Assembly (NCBI GenBank): GCA_949879025.1
Contig: CATLBO010000012.1
Location: 1-46,896 of the forward strand
Reading direction: 5' to 3'
DNA length: 46,896 nucleotides
Source: an uncultured Hungatella sp.
GTDB taxonomy: Bacteria > Bacillota > Clostridia > Lachnospirales > Lachnospiraceae
Shown here one piece after another: positions 31,298 through 40,084 of this stretch. Below the pieces are notes generated by a model, which worked only from the letters and a program-made list of their open reading frames with translations, ran no database searches and had not been told where the DNA came from. Within the stretch, counting starts at the first letter, position 1. The number at the start of each line of letters is the position of its first letter. The position numbers and the translations under genes are program-made.

Positions 31298-32374
31298 TCA
31301 AATTTTCATAATGTGATACCCTGCTGCCTTTGTCAGACGGTTCATAATAGCCCTTCCCAGATTGTCCCCGGAAAAACTCTCCGAATAAATTTCATCCACA
31401 TCCAGGCTGTCAAACTCTCTCAGCACCGCAAACAGGCTGTGTGCAATGCTTTCCTCCCTGTTCCGATGGCCCAGGCTTCGGATCACTGCCTCCGCCGGAT
31501 ATAAAGCTTTCGTTTCCTCCGTGCAGATAATCCCTGCCTTTTGTCCTCTTGCTGCGGTTTCGGAAGCAAGTCTTATAATTGTATCTGTCACTTTGGCGCT
31601 TACGGCGCCCCCTTCCCAAATTCTATCTTCTATCAATGTCAGATTTGCCTTAGGTGCATAGTGGCGGTATTTCATTCCAGGCGCTTTTGGCCTTATGCCG
31701 GATTTTAAAGGCCCTGCAATGGCTGGATCAATTTCTATCCGGCCTGCAGTTTCCTGAAGCATTTCCACAGTAATTGCCCCAGGCCGTAAAAGCATGGGAA
31801 TGTCTCCTGTTACATCCACAATAGTGGATTCTACCCCGATTTCCACCGGCCCTCCATCCACAATCATTTCAATCCGTCCATCCATATCCTGAAGCACATG
31901 GCCTGCCGTCGTAGGGCTGGGACGTCCGGAAGTGTTGGCGCTGGGAGCCGCTACAGGGATACCTGCCAATTCAATCAGGCGGTTTGCTATGATATCATCC
32001 GGCATCCTTACGGCTACTGTGTCAAGACCACCAGTAGTGGTATGCGGCACAAGACTGCTCTTCATAAAAATCATAGTCAAAGGCCCCGGCCAATATGCAT
32101 CCATCAATCTTTGTCCTGCCTCCGGAATCCCGGATACCAGAGGCTGAAGATCTGATATTTTTGCTATATGGGCTATTAAAGGATTATCTGACGGCCTTCC
32201 TTTTGCCGCATAGATTTTAGCCGCTGCATGTTCATCCAGGGCATTGGCCCCCAGACCGTAGACTGTTTCCGTGGGAAAAGCTACCAGACCTCCTGTGCGA
32301 AGAATTGCGGCGGCTTCCTCAAGGCTGGCATTATCCAGCTCTGTTCTATTGATCGAAATCATCCTGGTTTTCAT
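31298..32374 (-). CDS. sua5: L-threonylcarbamoyladenylate synthase (Sua5/YwlC)
   Basis: First enzyme of the universal tRNA t6A37 pathway, using threonine, bicarbonate and ATP. 358 aa, the long Sua5 form: catalytic YrdC domain at about 10-205 (GLVAFPTETVYGLGANAL, KGRPSDNPLIAHI, PSANTSGRPSPTTA, RPGAITVEML) and a C-terminal Sua5 domain (about 225-350) after a flexible PGMKYRHYAPK linker. Start 32374 (MKTRMISINRT) follows GAAGG; a TTG two codons upstream is less likely. Divergent from the amidase gene. The C-terminal domain is known to regulate the YrdC site in archaeal Sua5. Confidence 0.93.
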   Translation of the reverse strand: MKTRMISINRTELDNASLEEAAAILRTGGLVAFPTETVYGLGANALDEHAAAKIYAAKGRPSDNPLIAHIAKISDLQPLVSGIPEAGQRLMDAYWPGPLTMIFMKSSLVPHTTTGGLDTVAVRMPDDIIANRLIELAGIPVAAPSANTSGRPSPTTAGHVLQDMDGRIEMIVDGGPVEIGVESTIVDVTGDIPMLLRPGAITVEMLQETAGRIEIDPAIAGPLKSGIRPKAPGMKYRHYAPKANLTLIEDRIWEGGAVSAKVTDTIIRLASETAARGQKAGIICTEETKALYPAEAVIRSLGHRNREESIAHSLFAVLREFDSLDVDEIYSESFSGDNLGRAIMNRLTKAAGYHIMKI

Positions 32375-32517
32375 GTACAATCCTTCTTTTTGTCATAATT
32401 CCTATATCACGGGACATTTTACCATAAATAAGTCCCTGATTGCAACTAACCAGGCAGCAGTTCTTTTTTTATATTTTCGGGATATATTTAAAACAAGAAT
32501 TCTCTTTGGAGCAGGCT

Positions 32518-33267
32518 TTGAAACCTACCAATACGAACCAAACTCCGTCTCCAGCCAAAAAATCCTCATTGCTGTCAGGCACAGAACTGATCATGACAAT
32601 TCTGCTGCTTTTTTTTATCTATCATCTGTCCCGGCAGGCCGCCATGCTGACTTCCGTCACTGCCTCCCCGTCTGCCAAGAAAACCTCTAATCCTGTTGTT
32701 GTAATTGACAGCGGACATGGCGGAAGGGACCCAGGAAAAATCGGCATTGACGGCAGTCTGGAAAAGGATATAAACCTGCAGATTGCACAGAAGGTAAAGA
32801 ACTACCTGGAAAAATCCGATGTGACAGTGATTATGACCAGGGATGGTGACGCAGGTTTGTATGATGAAGGCGACGGCAACAAGAAAATGGCTGATATGAA
32901 AGGGCGATGTAGCCTTATTAACCAGGCTTCGCCGGTTCTTACAGTCAGTATTCATCAAAACAGTTACCACCAGGAACCTATAAGCGGCGGTCAGGTATTC
33001 TATTATAAAAATTCCCAACAAGGCAAACGCCTTGCGGAGATCCTGCAGAAGCGGTTTGACTTTGTCCTGGGAGAAAACAACCGGCGCACTGCAAAAGCCA
33101 ATGACAACTATTACCTCCTTCTCCATGTCCGCTCCCCTATTGTGATTGTGGAATGCGGGTTTTTAAGCAACAGGAACGAAGCTGCCCTGCTGAACACAGA
33201 GGAATATCAAGATCGTCTGGCGTGGACCATTCATATGGGCATTATGGAGTATTTAAATACGCAGTAA
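32518..33267 (+). CDS. N-acetylmuramoyl-L-alanine amidase, CwlD-like
   Basis: Amidase_3 zinc hydrolase, about 249 aa. Catalytic pattern intact: zinc His in VVIDSGHGGRDPG, Glu in GSLEKDINL, His in TVSIHQNSY and Glu in IVIVECGFLSN. A hydrophobic segment (MTILLLFFIYHLSRQA) near the N-terminus anchors it or acts as signal. Similar to CwlD, which makes muramic-delta-lactam in the spore cortex, enabling germination; other cell-separation roles are possible. The start is uncertain: TTG at 32518 has GGAG six nt away and gives a good topology, while a TTG at 32440 has no comparable site. Divergent from sua5 and convergent with the lipoprotein gene. Confidence 0.85.
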   Translation: MKPTNTNQTPSPAKKSSLLSGTELIMTILLLFFIYHLSRQAAMLTSVTASPSAKKTSNPVVVIDSGHGGRDPGKIGIDGSLEKDINLQIAQKVKNYLEKSDVTVIMTRDGDAGLYDEGDGNKKMADMKGRCSLINQASPVLTVSIHQNSYHQEPISGGQVFYYKNSQQGKRLAEILQKRFDFVLGENNRRTAKANDNYYLLLHVRSPIVIVECGFLSNRNEAALLNTEEYQDRLAWTIHMGIMEYLNTQ

Positions 33268-34800: not shown

Positions 34801-36462
34801 CTATTCGTTTACTTTTACCACATCCCATATCGATGCCGGCTCGAAACCCAGCTTCCAGCACCCTACTCCGGCTAGATCATATTCTCTGATAAGATCCATT
34901 TTCAGGCCCAAAGAAGTGGCTTCCTCCATCCAGATCTGCTTCAGGCCTGCTTCCGAATCAAGTTCTCCATAGTACTGTCCCAATTCTTCCTGCCAGTACA
35001 ATTCCACATCGTTTTCTTCAACCCACTTCAAGGCATCTTTAATCCCCATAGCAGATGTGGTGATCATACCGTCTTTTTCTGTCCAGATTCTGGTATAGAA
35101 CGGCACCGCATTAATTACTTTTTCCTTGGGAACCTGTTCCAAAGTATTTCTGATTCCCTCTTTCACAAAATTGTAAGATGCCACCGATCCGGCTTCTCCT
35201 CCAGCATGGTGTTCATCATACCCCATAATTATCACATAGTCTGCCACGCGCCCCTGCTCCGCCCGGTTATAAAAAGCATTGTATCCAGCCGGAACATAGT
35301 TATCTACTGAAAGGATAATGCCCTCCCTGCGGCAGGATACTGACAATTCCCGAATAAACTCGACGTAATGGGGGCCTGCTTCCGGTTTAATTCCTTCAAT
35401 ATCCAAATTAATTCCATCCAGATCATAAGTCTTTACATCTTCCATGAGGGAACTGATCAGTTTCTTGCGAACCGATGTCTTTGCAAAAAGGATCTCAGAG
35501 TTTACATTCTCCCCCATGTTAAAATTATCCAGCGCCGCCCATACCTGCATCCCCATACTATGGGCCTTATCTACATAGCTGCGGCTGGCATAGGAATGAT
35601 ATGTACCGTTATTATCTGTCAAAGCAAACCAGGTGGGAGCAATGACATTAACCCCTGAAGTATTGGCAATCAGCTGCTCCATAGCATCATTGGCATTATC
35701 GCCAGTTACCTGGTGCCACACAAGGCAAACCTTTTCATCCATGGAAATATTTGTGTACTCCGGAAGCTCTGCAGTGCATGGATGCTCCTGACTTTTTATG
35801 TCCTTAATAATCTTATTTTTCAGATATCCTGTATGCCCGTCATCTGTCCGGACTTTCGTCCATTCTTCTGACTCCTCCAGAATAATTATATTCCCGCCTT
35901 TCTCCACGTAAGTCAGCACTGGACTCTTAATACTGGGTTCCACCCTGACTGCTGACCGCTTATCTGCAGTTCCTGTGCGGAAAGGTTCCCATCGGTTGTC
36001 CAGATAAATCCTCTTATACTCTCCCCCCGTGTAACTGTCCATATCCACTGCCGTGTAATTGTTGATTAGGCCCATGGAAAGGTAAACTTCATCTCCCTCT
36101 AAAAGCAGGAGCGGAGCCCCTGTACTGCCTTCAGTTCTCTTGTCTGCATAAACGATGGAATCAGGAAGTGCATACACCAGAAGTTTTTCCGTATCATCCC
36201 AGTAGAATTTCTCATTAACCGAGCTGTTGACCCATTGAAGGGGCAAATATATCTGGCCGTCCCTGGTGATCCCTTTTATCTTCTGCAGTTCTTCATTAAA
36301 AAAAACTGCTGTCTTCTCACCGCTGACTCCCAGCACCTGCCCTAAGTCTGCAGGTTCCTTCGTAGGCATAAGCCGGCCTGCCGCCCACCAGCCTGCAATT
36401 GCTGCCGCTATCAGGATAATCAGCGCTATGGCCATAAAAATTGGAATCCGTTTTTCTCTCAA
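34801..36462 (-). CDS. GH18 protein with SH3 domain, YaaH-like (spore/cell-wall)
   Basis: 553 aa. Anchor segment at about 8-28 (IFMAIALIILIAAAIAGWWAAG). A stalk-like segment resembling copper-amine-oxidase N-type repeats (about 50-140) is followed by a bacterial SH3 domain (KRSAVRVEPSIKSPVLTYV to GHTGYLKNKI, about 165-225). The glycoside hydrolase 18 domain follows (about 240-550) with the catalytic motif DGINLDIEG (Glu near 355) and YDEHH. This architecture fits spore-cortex or peptidoglycan-directed hydrolases such as YaaH, although substrate is inferred. Start is TTG at 36462, with a strong AAGGAGGAGG ahead. A possible -10 (TATACT, about 36503-36508, minus) lies upstream. Operon with the lipoprotein. 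Confidence 0.86.
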   Translation of the reverse strand: MREKRIPIFMAIALIILIAAAIAGWWAAGRLMPTKEPADLGQVLGVSGEKTAVFFNEELQKIKGITRDGQIYLPLQWVNSSVNEKFYWDDTEKLLVYALPDSIVYADKRTEGSTGAPLLLLEGDEVYLSMGLINNYTAVDMDSYTGGEYKRIYLDNRWEPFRTGTADKRSAVRVEPSIKSPVLTYVEKGGNIIILEESEEWTKVRTDDGHTGYLKNKIIKDIKSQEHPCTAELPEYTNISMDEKVCLVWHQVTGDNANDAMEQLIANTSGVNVIAPTWFALTDNNGTYHSYASRSYVDKAHSMGMQVWAALDNFNMGENVNSEILFAKTSVRKKLISSLMEDVKTYDLDGINLDIEGIKPEAGPHYVEFIRELSVSCRREGIILSVDNYVPAGYNAFYNRAEQGRVADYVIIMGYDEHHAGGEAGSVASYNFVKEGIRNTLEQVPKEKVINAVPFYTRIWTEKDGMITTSAMGIKDALKWVEENDVELYWQEELGQYYGELDSEAGLKQIWMEEATSLGLKMDLIREYDLAGVGCWKLGFEPASIWDVVKVNE

Positions 36463-36565: not shown

Positions 36566-36600
36566 AAAAAATGGCGCCAGGCAGCAGACCGCCTGGCACC
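36566..36600 (-). terminator. Terminator after the kinase locus
   Basis: Minus strand: GGTGCCAGGC pairs with GCCTGGCGCC around an 8-nt loop, and TTTTTT follows at 36566-36571. It separates the kinase locus from the GH18 gene. Confidence 0.85.
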
Positions 36601-36685
36601 ACATAAAGTATGCAGCCAGGTTCCGCATCCTTTTGGCTGCAGGCTGAATATGGTATTCTCCCGGAACCTGGTATCTTATTGCTGT

Positions 36686-36910
36686 TTAACGATTATAAAC
36701 CCGATCAAAATGAATTTCCTTTAAAGTTCCCTCATCACCTCCTATGTAGTCGCACATATAAAAAGCTCCATCTTCTCTTACCTGGAAAATCTTATCCCAG
36801 TCCTTATCCTCTGCTATTACCCCGTCTATGTAAATCGGGATGCCTTTGGATTCAAACCGCCTTAATCCGTCTACGTACTGCCTCTGTTCCTCCGCACTGT
36901 ACCCTTCCAT
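36686..36910 (-). CDS. Small hypothetical protein of the kinase locus
   Basis: 74 aa, soluble, mixed acidic/aromatic. It contains two beta-like blocks, GIPIYIDGVIAEDKDW and EDGAFYMCDYIGGDEGTLKEI, ending in HFDRVYNR. I recognise no family. GGAGG precedes ATG 36910 at about 8-nt spacing. It starts 19 nt after the stop of the degenerate ParA-like gene and is followed by a strong terminator, so it is the last gene of the locus. The compact beta-rich appearance suggests a partner or substrate protein, which is inference. Confidence 0.65.
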   Translation of the reverse strand: MEGYSAEEQRQYVDGLRRFESKGIPIYIDGVIAEDKDWDKIFQVREDGAFYMCDYIGGDEGTLKEIHFDRVYNR

Positions 36911-36929
36911 CCAATCTTCTCCTCCGTTT

Positions 36930-37586
36930 TTAACCGCTGTCCCTTTTCATTCTCCATAGAAGGTTTTTCCGTGACACACTGCCTGAAAAAGAACCCTGCA
37001 TGAGCGTTGTCTCCATCCACCCAATCAGCTCCCGGGTAACCGTAAATGCATCTGCTGAAAATGGAATCCTCCAAACTTCTGGTTTCCGCCTTTTATTCCA
37101 CTCCTTTCTGGATTCTTCACTGCCAAAGGCTGTCAAAAATTTCCAGCTTTCTTTTTCTGCGTCCCCTTCCGATTCGGCAATCTCCCAAAATGCATTCATC
37201 TGCCACTCGCTGAAGGACATGACGATCCAGACAGCACTGCATCTCGTCAGCTCTATGCACACTTGCTTCTTCATAGAGCCAAAGTCAATAAGTATCTCCT
37301 CATATTCTGCTGCCAGGCATTCCATCAGCCTGCTGCTGTCTGCCCTGGGATAATAATCCACTTTCTGAATCTGATAGCAGCAGGCATCCTGAAGCTGACC
37401 AGTACACATTTTTCCCAAACGACTGAAGTCTCCATGGCTGTTCCATTCCAGCACTGCTGTCCTTTTTCTTTCCACGCTCTGTAAGTAATTGGCTGCCAGC
37501 AATATAAGATGAGTGACTCCCACCCCTCTGCCGGCTCCGGCAATCCCCGTAATCCTCGGCTTTGTTCCCCTCCCAGCAAAGCCCAT
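36930..37586 (-). CDS. Stand-alone degenerate ParA/MinD-like P-loop protein
   Basis: 218 aa. Starts with a Rossmann-like strand and a Walker-A-like loop GIAGAGRGVGVTHLILLAANYL, in which both P-loop lysines of ParA (KGGxGKT) are absent and the signature reads GVGVTH. The A' position reads LIDFG. The region after it (SAVWIVMSFSEWQ, WRIPFSADAF) keeps the ParA layout. The same pattern is found in the C-terminal part of the kinase just upstream, so the two are probably paralogues. Start uncertain: ATG 37586 has no good ribosome site, and a strong GGGAGGGG lies just after it without a suitable start codon. An extended -10 promoter lies at 37633-37641. Confidence 0.7.
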   Translation of the reverse strand: MGFAGRGTKPRITGIAGAGRGVGVTHLILLAANYLQSVERKRTAVLEWNSHGDFSRLGKMCTGQLQDACCYQIQKVDYYPRADSSRLMECLAAEYEEILIDFGSMKKQVCIELTRCSAVWIVMSFSEWQMNAFWEIAESEGDAEKESWKFLTAFGSEESRKEWNKRRKPEVWRIPFSADAFTVTRELIGWMETTLMQGSFSGSVSRKNLLWRMKRDSG

Positions 37587-37632
37587 TGATGAAAATTTCG
37601 TTTTTTCTTCCGCCTCTCACAGTCAAAAATTT

Positions 37633-37641
37633 ATTATAACA
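37633..37641 (-). promoter_or_regulatory. Extended -10 promoter of the degenerate ParA-like gene
   Basis: TGTTATAAT on the minus strand, immediately downstream of the kinase stop codon. No good -35 is present, as often with extended -10 promoters. Confidence 0.45.
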
Positions 37642-37653
37642 TAACTGGCTGTT

Positions 37654-39105
37654 TTATTCCTGCTGCCTGTGGCTTTCTTTCATATGTTTCTTCCACATGC
37701 CTGTATCTCCACCTCCTTTAGCCTTTTTCCAGTTTCCGGCTCTTTTCTTTCTGGCTCCTGTGCCTCCGTCCAACACTCCTGTTATCCTTATCAGTTCCTG
37801 AAAAAAAGCTTTATTCTCTTTTTCCATCTTCCACGGGTTCCTGAACACCGGCACCTGCAGGCATCTGGTTTGATCCACTCCTTCCGGAAAATCTGGCTTC
37901 ATTTCAGAGACAGTACGATTATAAAGCACCGCAAATTCCCGGCAGTCTCTCAGCTCATGAATTGCCAAGCCTCCTGCCTCCTGTTCCCACCATTTTCCGC
38001 CATGGATCAGCCACAGCGCCTTTGCCTCCCGATCATCTTGCACTGCTTTCCATTCCAATCCGTAATCGCGGATAACCACTGGATATTCCACTGGCTTCAG
38101 ATAGACAGAATCCCCATAGAAAGGCTTCATAGCCACCTGGTTTATCTGATAAATCCCATAGGAATCCAAAGCGCTTCTGCACCGAAGCGCCATGGCACGC
38201 ACATCGCCTGATAAATTTCTTTCTTCGTAAAGTGTTTTGCAGCCAGACTGGTTTAAGTATTGGGCCAGCCCTATTGCAACATGTGTCGTCCCTACGCCGT
38301 GACGGCTTCCTGCCAGAGCCAGTATAAGAGATGATAATTGATTTTCTTTGAAAACACCTGTTTGAGAATACAGATATTCTAATTCCTGTTTTAGTTCCGG
38401 GATTGATGGATAGCGCCGGGTCTTGTCTTCCCGCACGCAGATTTCGACGATTCTGCCAAGGGCTTTATCACTCATGGTTTCTGCCCCACGCTTTATATGC
38501 CCTGTTGAAAGATAGTATAGAAGAGCTCCGATCTGATAGATATCAGTGTAGGTTCCCAGCACGCCTCCAGTCTTTTGTTCAGGCGCACTGAAACCAGGGG
38601 TTCCGTATCGAAACAATGACTCATTGACCTCACAAATACGGCCTGCATGGTCAAAATCCAGCAATTTCACATATCCATGACAAAATAACAGATTCTTAGG
38701 CTGCAAATCCAAATATAAAATAGGGGTTTTTCCTGCGGAATGCAGGTAATGGACCAGGTCACAGACTTGAATTCCTATGCGGAGCGCTGCTTCCCGGTTC
38801 AGATGTCCCTGGTCTTTCACCAGGTCATAGAGAGTATCTCCCTCAAGATATTCTTCAATGAGATAACTGTTGCTGCAATCTTCTTCCAGATCGTACACGA
38901 TGGGAATCCCCGGATGGCATAAGGAAGTAAGAAGAAGGGCTTCCTTTTTAAATTGCCCATATCCGGCTGAAGACTTTGGAACCTGCTTTATGGCACGGTA
39001 TTCTCTCAGTTCCTGATGGAATGCCAGGTATACGGTTCCTCTCTGTCCCTTTCCTAATGTACGTATTAACTGATATTTTCCAAACAAAACGGTGTTCTCT
39101 ACCAT
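37654..39105 (-). CDS. Ser/Thr kinase fused to degenerate ParA-like domain
   Basis: About 483 aa, no membrane segment. Kinase domain (about 5-255): glycine loop LGKGQRGTVYLA, AIKQV lysine, catalytic loop ILYLDLQPKNLLF (HRD is YLD, LKPEN is LQPKN), DFG changed to DFD (LLDFDHAGR) and GTPGFSAPEQ as activation segment. After a short linker comes a ParA-like domain starting LILALAGSRHGVGTTHVAIGLAQYL, lacking the P-loop lysines, with RDYG at the A' position. C-terminal tail rich in Lys/Arg/Gly. Start 39105 (MVENTVLFGK) follows AAAGGAGGT at short spacing; an alternative ATG is at 39129. Its own promoter (39143-39171) drives the locus. Substrates unknown. Confidence 0.85.
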   Translation of the reverse strand: MVENTVLFGKYQLIRTLGKGQRGTVYLAFHQELREYRAIKQVPKSSAGYGQFKKEALLLTSLCHPGIPIVYDLEEDCSNSYLIEEYLEGDTLYDLVKDQGHLNREAALRIGIQVCDLVHYLHSAGKTPILYLDLQPKNLLFCHGYVKLLDFDHAGRICEVNESLFRYGTPGFSAPEQKTGGVLGTYTDIYQIGALLYYLSTGHIKRGAETMSDKALGRIVEICVREDKTRRYPSIPELKQELEYLYSQTGVFKENQLSSLILALAGSRHGVGTTHVAIGLAQYLNQSGCKTLYEERNLSGDVRAMALRCRSALDSYGIYQINQVAMKPFYGDSVYLKPVEYPVVIRDYGLEWKAVQDDREAKALWLIHGGKWWEQEAGGLAIHELRDCREFAVLYNRTVSEMKPDFPEGVDQTRCLQVPVFRNPWKMEKENKAFFQELIRITGVLDGGTGARKKRAGNWKKAKGGGDTGMWKKHMKESHRQQE

Positions 39106-39352: not shown

Positions 39353-40084
39353 ATGAAAATAGAACGGATTAATGACAACCAGATTCGCTGCACCCTTACC
39401 AGCTTTGACTTAAGCGTGCGCAACTTGAATCTGGGAGAATTGGCTTATGGAAGTGAAAAAGCCCGGGGATTGTTCCGGGAAATGATTCAGAAGGCTTCCA
39501 ATGAAGTAGGTTTTGAAGTTGAGGATATTCCTCTAATGGTGGAAGCCATTCCTCTTTCCAATGAAAGCATTATGCTGGTGATTACCAAGATCGAAGATCC
39601 GGAGGAACTGGATACTCGTTTCTCCAAGTTTTCGCCGTCATCAGAAGTTTCCTCCGATATGCTGTCCAATCTGGCAAATGAGCTGTTGGAAGGTGCGGAC
39701 GGATTATCCAAGCTGCTGGGCGAACATCTATCCTCCCTGCTTACGGACAGCACCCTATCCGGAGACGAATCGGCATCCCAGTCAGATACTCCTTCCCTGC
39801 GGATTTATACTTTTGACAGCCTGGACATGATATCGGAAGCCGCCCGGGCAGTGAAAGGCCTTTTTGACGGTATTAACACGCTTTACAAAAAACCGGACAC
39901 CTGCCAATATTTCCTGGTCATTAAAAATGACGGCAGCGATTCCCTGGCATTCAGCCGTGTATGTAATGTTCTGGCTGAATACGGAACCAAGCTTCATCAT
40001 GAATATGCCAGTGAAGCTTATTATGTGGAACATTATGAAGTTATCTGCCAGGATAAGGCACTTCAGGTATTTTCTTCTATTTAA
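39353..40084 (+). CDS. mecA: Adaptor protein MecA
   Basis: 243-aa ClpC adaptor that delivers substrates such as ComK or unfolded proteins to ClpCP. N-terminal substrate-binding domain (MKIERINDNQIRCTLTSFDL, about 1-80), a flexible Ser/Glu/Asp-rich linker (about 90-145) and a C-terminal ClpC-binding domain (RIYTFDSLDMISEAARAVKG to the end). The ATG follows AAGGAAGTG. Monocistronic between its promoter and terminator. It is divergent from the kinase gene. Confidence 0.93.
   Translation: MKIERINDNQIRCTLTSFDLSVRNLNLGELAYGSEKARGLFREMIQKASNEVGFEVEDIPLMVEAIPLSNESIMLVITKIEDPEELDTRFSKFSPSSEVSSDMLSNLANELLEGADGLSKLLGEHLSSLLTDSTLSGDESASQSDTPSLRIYTFDSLDMISEAARAVKGLFDGINTLYKKPDTCQYFLVIKNDGSDSLAFSRVCNVLAEYGTKLHHEYASEAYYVEHYEVICQDKALQVFSSI

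Follow-up and report, generated by a model that had tools for sequence, protein, structure and literature searches.

What does a eukaryote-like protein kinase do with a ParA-like domain at its C-terminus and a second, free-standing ParA-like protein encoded next to it, at a locus with no pilus genes in sight? The question is raised by the window, the whole stretch of 46,896 nucleotides that was analysed (uncultured Hungatella sp., Lachnospiraceae; assembly GCA_949879025.1, contig CATLBO010000012.1, positions 1 to 46,896), where a kinase-ParA fusion and a free ParA-fold protein, together referred to here as the pair, are encoded between mecA and a GH18 gene (Table 1). The pair is probably the control head of a Tad-like envelope machine, retained after the machine itself was lost. 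Gene order, co-retention and fold argue for the first half of this reading, and absence of the machine from the window's draft genome and from most kinase-bearing genomes of its family argues for the second.

Gene order in relatives

Three or more machine genes adjoin the kinase at 18 loci, none of them in the window's family (f1), and two further machine loci (L036, L039) are cut by contig ends. The kinase loci were classified with profiles derived from their own sequences, a machine gene being one for a TadZ-like protein, an ATPase, a membrane protein or a member of three small-protein families. Most often the genes run kinase::ParA - (ParA) - SAF/CpaB-like - ParA2 - TadZ-like - TadA-like ATPase - membrane protein - small proteins; SAF and ParA2 are exchanged in L152, and ParA2 is missing in L199. 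The membrane protein is about 570-690 amino acids (aa) long, and the small proteins each have one N-terminal hydrophobic segment. A first-pass annotation of the window, made from its sequence, had compared the pair with proteins of pilus loci while noting that the rest of such a locus is absent here; it is indeed absent at the window locus, and a locus of this type, Tad-like, is found in relatives.

The correspondence with the window is seen in a genome of family f4 (G063; L044 with L163), where the order is DF1858-mecA-(300-aa gene)-kinase-ParA-SAF-ParA2-TadZ-ATPase-TM (the membrane protein)-three small membrane proteins-GH18-amidase-Sua5. This is the window's neighbourhood plus a complete machine between the pair and GH18-amidase-Sua5. 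Its genes are matched by queries from an unrelated locus, L148 (ATPase 8e-179, TM 9e-64, SAF 3e-32, TadZ 3e-31). In a tree of 67 kinases, a branch at 100/99 sets the machine rows apart (the root is arbitrary), with two exceptions: L048, with no machine in view, falls inside the machine side, and L044 falls outside it.

The machine proteins score low against known families. The ATPase matches TIGR03819 (TadA) at E 1e-8 to 1e-9 (34-38 bits, cut-off 373) in the three proteins scanned, none over the cut-off, and PF00437 is over its own cut-off in two of six. SAF exceeds the Pfam cut-off in two of the four machine-locus SAF proteins scanned, and the CpaB match has E 8e-7 (29 bits, cut-off 71). One of five membrane proteins matches T2SSF (E 0.063), and L044 and L148 gave no such match; TadB/TadC were not recognised with confidence in the machine loci, and no prepilin peptidase was seen among the machine genes scanned, the loci not having been scanned throughout. 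With the ATPase far under its cut-off and TadB/TadC not confidently recognised, "Tad-like" is the most that can be said of it, and the sequences suggest an uncharacterised, kinase-headed, pilus-like machine.

Co-retention and probable loss of the machine

The 218-aa ParA-fold protein has matches in 41 of 99 genomes, including 24 of 26 genomes in the window's genus, its own among them. The order mecA - kinase - ParA - small gene - GH18 recurs at 56 named loci (Hungatella, Enterocloster, Lacrimispora and others). Fifty-four of these have the kinase fusion, with ParA at 54 (by selection, as the loci had been found via the ParA gene), the small gene at 53, GH18 at 52 and mecA at 45. In a sample of 150 f1 genomes from 149 genera, a ParA-domain search matched 85, of which 49 at E<=1e-10 (101 without such a match); scanning the loci of all 49 found a kinase fused to a ParA-fold domain in 46, and G555, G681 and G801, with no kinase at the locus, were dropped from kinase counts. 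The cut-off omits weaker matches, such as G787 (5.9e-7), which has the kinase and a machine match. Gene counts at loci use all reading frames, overlapping ParA genes included; on this count a free ParA gene stands at 39 of the 46 kinase loci.

The machine is found at none of the 38 f1 kinase loci of G-numbered genomes and none of the 54 named loci (some genomes are in both sets), and nine of the 38 keep SAF at the kinase locus. Searches of the 150 genomes found the machine membrane protein in 21 and SAF, with many weak matches, in 32. Of the 46 kinase genomes, 11 have SAF adjacent to the kinase, and the membrane protein is encoded in all 11 of these, compared with 8 of the 35 others (Fisher 5.7e-6). 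SAF beside the kinase and a machine elsewhere in the genome are co-retained.

None of the 20 f1 machine loci examined has a detected kinase. Eleven, one from each genome with SAF beside the kinase, also have no SAF; for two of these, L208 and L221, an upstream SAF cannot be judged because the loci start at a contig end. Seven of the other nine have their own SAF; in L226 (G807) none was detected, and L224 (G801) is a 3.7-kb contig. In 27 of the 46 kinase genomes, the window's included, there is no machine match, and the window's own genome (83% complete) matches neither the machine membrane protein nor SAF.

The pair could instead have been taken over, as a positioning or phosphorylation module, by a canonical Tad pilus encoded elsewhere in the genome, on contig C3. 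The Tad-type locus there (L143:7970-10908) has an A24 peptidase, a T2SSE ATPase (E 3.6e-51) and a TadZ-type protein, which matches E. rectale TadZ (PDB 3fkq) at E 1e-6 and PF21194 at E 9.9e-6 (26.3 bits, cut-off 27.4). A TadA-family ATPase match (E<=1e-20, none over the family cut-off) is present in 149 of the 150 f1 genomes, so that a target is nearly always available; for the same reason, co-occurrence is uninformative and cannot test the C3 pilus as a client. However, that locus already has a TadZ of its own, and 101 of the 150 genomes have no ParA-domain match at E<=1e-10, yet nearly all have the ATPase. Such a takeover is thought unlikely.

Two ParA-fold domains without signature lysines

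The C-terminal domain of the kinase and the 218-aa protein match as profiles (hhalign probability 99.1, E 1e-18) and are paralogous, both with a predicted ParA/MinD (SIMIBI-type) fold. The shared ParA/MinD-like frame was a claim of the first-pass annotation, and the fold, which had been fixed beforehand as the thing to be seen, was found in both predicted structures. 3fkq is a structural match of both models, which also bears out the suggested kinship with TadZ/CpaE-type proteins; for the fused-domain model it ranks fourth in Foldseek and is not among the 50 VIA-align matches listed.

Profile libraries recognise little of this. The 218-aa and 74-aa proteins have no Pfam match up to E 1, and the C-terminal domain of the kinase is unknown to Pfam. 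The free ParA-like protein has no match among Pfam, NCBIfam, PHROGs and PADLOC models; in PHROGs, neither ParA-like part nor the 74-aa protein is matched. PF21194, the N-terminal atypical receiver domain, is matched by neither the kinase nor the 218-aa protein. A PDB sequence search with alignment A2 (free-standing ParA, 56 rows) gave no ParA match (best E 0.28, a designed protein), and one with the profile of A3 (52 rows) gave Soj at E 0.016. In a viral structure library, a CpaE-like phage protein was the sole match at E<=0.001.

The signature lysine of the deviant Walker A motif and the second lysine (KGGxGKT) are both absent from both window domains, as first annotated. Across kinase-fused rows, the second lysine is absent in 112 of 112, and 20 of the 92 rows that have no machine at the locus carry Lys at the signature position. 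The last Gly, Thr and His of the P-loop are invariant in A2, and P-loop Gly/Thr/His and Walker B Asp are invariant in both alignments (Thr25 and Asp101 in A2; Thr29 and Asp102 in A3); we take this Thr to be the Mg-site Thr/Ser and this Asp to be that of Walker B. By the order of elements in the predicted secondary structure, IDFG/RDYG is placed at the end of the Walker B strand, so the A' label first given to it does not hold; the A' position is placed at EWN / YEERN, the end of the second strand, where A' Asp would be Glu. The lost lysines do not in themselves justify the doubt about ATP hydrolysis that had been drawn from them: E. rectale TadZ, in which both are missing, has reported intrinsic ATPase activity, according to an excerpt of PMC10482377. 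For the two window domains, we infer ATP binding and mutual pairing.

A MinD-like C-terminal membrane helix on the kinase was considered and is unsupported as a common feature: of 66 tails, 16 score at p 0.05 or better when compared with shuffled versions of themselves, and the last helix of the ParA-fold domain is among the matches.

The kinase domain and its constraint

The kinase domain matches Pkinase (PF00069) at E 9e-33, with 114 bits against a cut-off of 31.7. In the window kinase, the AIK Lys and alpha-C Glu are in place, as are the catalytic Asp, the Asn and the DFG Asp, and the HRD Arg, DLKPxN Lys and DFG Gly are replaced by Leu, Gln and Asp; it may act as a kinase on some substrate. 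Models for anti-phage defence kinases in PADLOC (PD-T4-6 and mad6) also match, with a best E of 5.8e-36, which would be expected if the pair were a defence system. However, the PADLOC matches listed fall in the kinase domain (residues 1-237), bar one ending at 271, the ParA-like parts match no PADLOC model, and the pair has a fixed chromosomal place. A defence role is regarded as highly improbable.

Both the catalytic Asp and the DFG Asp are present in all 112 kinase rows, and the AIK Lys in every ungapped row (six are gapped there). The 20 rows with a machine, two from loci cut by contig ends, all have the DLKPxN Lys and the DFG Gly, and 18 have Arg before the catalytic Asp. Among the 92 rows without a machine at the locus, Leu replaces the HRD Arg in 81, Gln the DLKPxN Lys in 64, and Asp the DFG Gly in 45; the nine SAF-only loci keep the Lys and the Gly. 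Overall, the DLKPxN Lys is found in 29 of 29 machine or SAF rows, compared with 17 of 38 others. A coupling of kinase motif loss with machine loss was nevertheless rejected: there are only two changes on the tree, and five independent pairs do not support it. The motif pattern is thus a description, not proof.

For the window and seven close relatives (28 pairs), median dN/dS (nonsynonymous to synonymous substitution rates) is 0.14 for the kinase, 0.20 for the fused domain and 0.18 for ParA (28/28 pairs each), compared with 0.06 for MecA (22/28 pairs) and 0.08 for GH18 (20/28 pairs). The pair is maintained under purifying selection, with looser constraint than MecA and GH18. This looseness, the catalytic-loop changes and the 101 f1 genomes without a ParA-domain match at E<=1e-10 are what a decaying remnant without function would leave. 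However, ratios of 0.14-0.20, a kinase frame of 382-534 aa in 54 of the 56 named loci, contig ends truncating the remaining two, and the invariant P-loop Gly/Thr/His, Walker B Asp and catalytic Asp do not look like decay, which makes a remnant improbable.

Distribution and chromosomal neighbours

Beyond the family, an order-wide search matched 204 of 393 genomes, of which the weak matches may be other ParA-like proteins. Two loci, L038 (6708-8162) and L050 (6656-8167), have no free ParA gene, and their fused kinase domain fits the free-standing profile A2 better than A3, an apparent domain replacement by fusion.

Contig C47 of the window's own genome (L142:8724-9878) encodes a protein of 384 aa that matches the kinase-fused ParA-like domain in its C-terminal part (E 2.4e-17), and similar proteins of 310-430 aa are found in L147, L151, L153, L155-L157 and L160, loci that give the impression of integrative elements. 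G728 has proteins of 896 aa (L214:11635) and 774 aa (L272:4715) with the same ParA-type domain and no recognised kinase, which suggests further fusion partners of the domain; the former adjoins SAF in a machine locus and was not counted as SAF beside a kinase.

Co-occurrence of three genes, the third encoding a small partner, had been proposed at first; the kinase does occur with the free ParA gene, as counted above, and the 74-aa gene is not tied to the kinase. Of the 150 f1 genomes, 63 carry it, and 23 of these are among the 46 with a verified kinase. In 15 of the 40 kinase-less carriers, loci were examined, and the gene lies directly before GH18 in 15/15 with no kinase in view (mecA is in view in 12). 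Its dN/dS is 0.05 (10/28 pairs measurable). With 40 of 63 carriers outside the verified-kinase set and this adjacency, the 74-aa protein was rejected as the pair's partner; the gene belongs with GH18, not with the kinase-ParA module. As an observation in its own right, this gene and its relatives (L227-L241) are a small conserved gene right before SH3-GH18 in many Lachnospiraceae.

The constancy of the neighbours, with GH18 at 52 and mecA at 45 of the 54 kinase-bearing named loci, could mean that the pair acts on the cell envelope together with the GH18 hydrolase, amidase and mecA, and that its position is functional. However, GH18 and the small gene stand without the kinase in the 15 loci just described, mecA is in view at only two of the 18 full-machine loci (L044, L194), and in the window a terminator separates the 74-aa gene from GH18. 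A joint envelope function is thought quite unlikely.

A control head that probably outlived its machine

The reading of the pair as a retained control head can be put as a mechanism. In the ancestral setting, the ParA-fold domain of the kinase and the free ParA-fold protein would form a nucleotide-bound pair, which would keep the kinase at the machine's base on the cytoplasmic side, beside the SAF/CpaB-like membrane protein and the TadZ-like protein, where phosphorylation by the held kinase would control assembly or activity of the machine. In Lachnospiraceae, the rest of the machine would have left the kinase locus: some genera would have kept it elsewhere in the genome with SAF still beside the kinase, and in the 27 genomes without a machine match, including the window's, the pair would persist as a free phospho-signalling scaffold with an altered catalytic loop. 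Scaffolding or positioning under phosphorylation control, as first proposed, is plausible, and the localisation and any present function assigned to the orphan pair are tentative. On a wider and more tentative reading, at a little under even odds, a cytoplasmic kinase seated on a pair of lysine-less ParA folds directs a Tad-like machine of Clostridia, and this head outlived the machine in Lachnospiraceae, where it turned into a free phospho-signalling scaffold and acquired a new client.

Several observations weigh against the retained-head reading. The machine is named from weak matches (TadA, CpaB and T2SSF, above). The loss of the catalytic-loop Lys tracks machine loss in counts, but its two changes on the tree and the unsupportive independent pairs add nothing to it. 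L048, outside f1, has a kinase with no machine in view; seven of the 46 kinase loci have no free ParA gene; in G801 (f1; L243, C65), a single locus combines ParA-type domains with SAF and the machine, and no kinase was detected; and the window's genome is a draft, only 83% complete. Finally, eight of the 35 kinase genomes without an adjoining SAF still match the machine membrane protein. Five of these (G049, G741, G728, G800, G783) have a machine locus with its own SAF; the rest are G620, with the membrane protein in two short frames, G807, with no SAF detected, and G777.

Two of these loci were noted separately. The first protein of L243 (G801:C65) has 377 aa and shows no kinase. In the machine locus L245 (G620:C20), the membrane protein is present only as frames of 217 and 241 aa, and there is no SAF at the kinase locus; the machine may be decaying here, or the assembly may be at fault.

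The pair links a eukaryote-like kinase directly to a ParA/TadZ-type positioning protein, in a family whose P-loop lysines are widely lost in Clostridia, and it draws attention to a pilus-like machine, so far uncharacterised, with a kinase at its head. Because this kinase occurs with the machine nearby, elsewhere or absent, its distribution amounts to a natural experiment on its role.

Features of the window

The kinase, ParA-like and 74-aa genes lie where first annotated, all on the minus strand (Table 1). The kinase start ATG, at position 39105, where the annotated region had its end, is preceded by AAAGGAGGTGGG. The strong terminator described at first is present (36602-36571); terminator-like sites in the region number six, compared with a mean of 3.0 (sd 1.6) in shuffles. 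The internal extended -10 is likewise present as a pattern match (37641-37633). Of the promoter proposed upstream of the three genes, a candidate stands before the kinase (39171-39143, a 9/12 match only), and the 8 promoter matches in the region are no clear excess over shuffles (mean 5.3, sd 2.3). The names of the amidase-like and Sua5/TsaC-like genes are our assumption and do not come from a scan; the former is on the strand opposite to that in most other loci. In the window, GH18 is further followed by a gene for a CNP-type phosphoesterase.

Table 1. Coordinates of the pair, its motifs and its neighbours in the window.
Feature	Position	Strand	Details
Ser/Thr protein kinase + lysine-less ParA-fold domain	37654..39105	-	483 aa; kinase domain residues 11-242, ParA-fold domain about residues 257-447, then basic tail
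Catalytic loop YLDLQPKN	38692..38715	-	HRD Arg -> Leu, DLKPxN Lys -> Gln; catalytic Asp, Asn kept
DFG region LLDFDHA	38644..38664	-	Asp kept, Gly -> Asp
P-loop GSRHGVGTTH of fused domain	38281..38310	-	kinase residues 266-275
Free-standing lysine-less ParA-fold protein	36930..37586	-	218 aa
P-loop GAGRGVGVTH of free-standing protein	37509..37538	-	residues 17-26
Extended -10, perfect TGTTATAAT	37633..37641	-	between kinase stop and ParA-like start; pattern match only
Small gene	36686..36910	-	74 aa; assigned to downstream GH18 gene, outside kinase-ParA module
Intrinsic terminator	36571..36602	-	14-bp stem (9 G-C), then T-run TTTTTGCGTG
mecA	39353..40084	+	divergent neighbour, syntenic anchor; PF05389 E 1.6e-63
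SH3 + GH18 gene	34801..36462	-	syntenic anchor; PF00704 E 1.4e-19
Amidase-like gene (query AMID)	32440..33267	+	syntenic anchor
Sua5/TsaC-like gene (query SUA5)	31298..32380	-	syntenic anchor

Comparison with known systems

Searches of the open-licence PMC literature listed no paper that, judging by its entry, describes such a kinase-ParA fusion or machine. The nearest known proteins are TadZ/CpaE, represented by E. rectale TadZ (3fkq). Unlike these, the pair has no N-terminal atypical receiver domain, its place being taken by the kinase in one protein and by nothing in the other, and it has a His after the P-loop Thr. Moreover, the machine of the relatives has a separate TadZ-like gene, and the window pair is not encoded in a Tad locus, whereas that of the relatives lies in a Tad-like one. 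With the canonical Tad (type IVc) pilus, the relatives' machine shares a TadA-family ATPase, CpaB/SAF and ParA/TadZ-like proteins. It differs in scores under the family cut-offs, except for some SAF and T2SSE, in the kinase at its head and the extra ParA-like genes, and in that TadB/TadC were not confidently recognised and no peptidase was seen among the genes scanned. McdA type 1 likewise has no signature lysine, a likeness that covers this lysine only; it differs in positioning carboxysomes with McdB.

No type VII secretion gene was recognised at the window locus, where no profile search was aimed at them. Elsewhere, L047:7608-10333 (G073) encodes a kinase-ParA fusion, with a PP2C gene and small proteins in the size range of WXG100 alongside, and is possibly a type VII secretion locus. 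An excerpt of PMC11217815 describes type VII variants with a kinase and TadZ-receiver/AAA proteins at Gram-positive secretion loci, some beside Tad genes. The likeness of these variants (TscD, TsdD, TsfV; T7SSg/h) to the pair is that of a kinase with TadZ-type proteins at secretion loci; TscD and TsdD differ in having transmembrane and extracellular parts, and that excerpt mentions no ParA-like domain for them. The occurrence of kinases and TadZ-type proteins at Gram-positive secretion loci is, on this source, already known.

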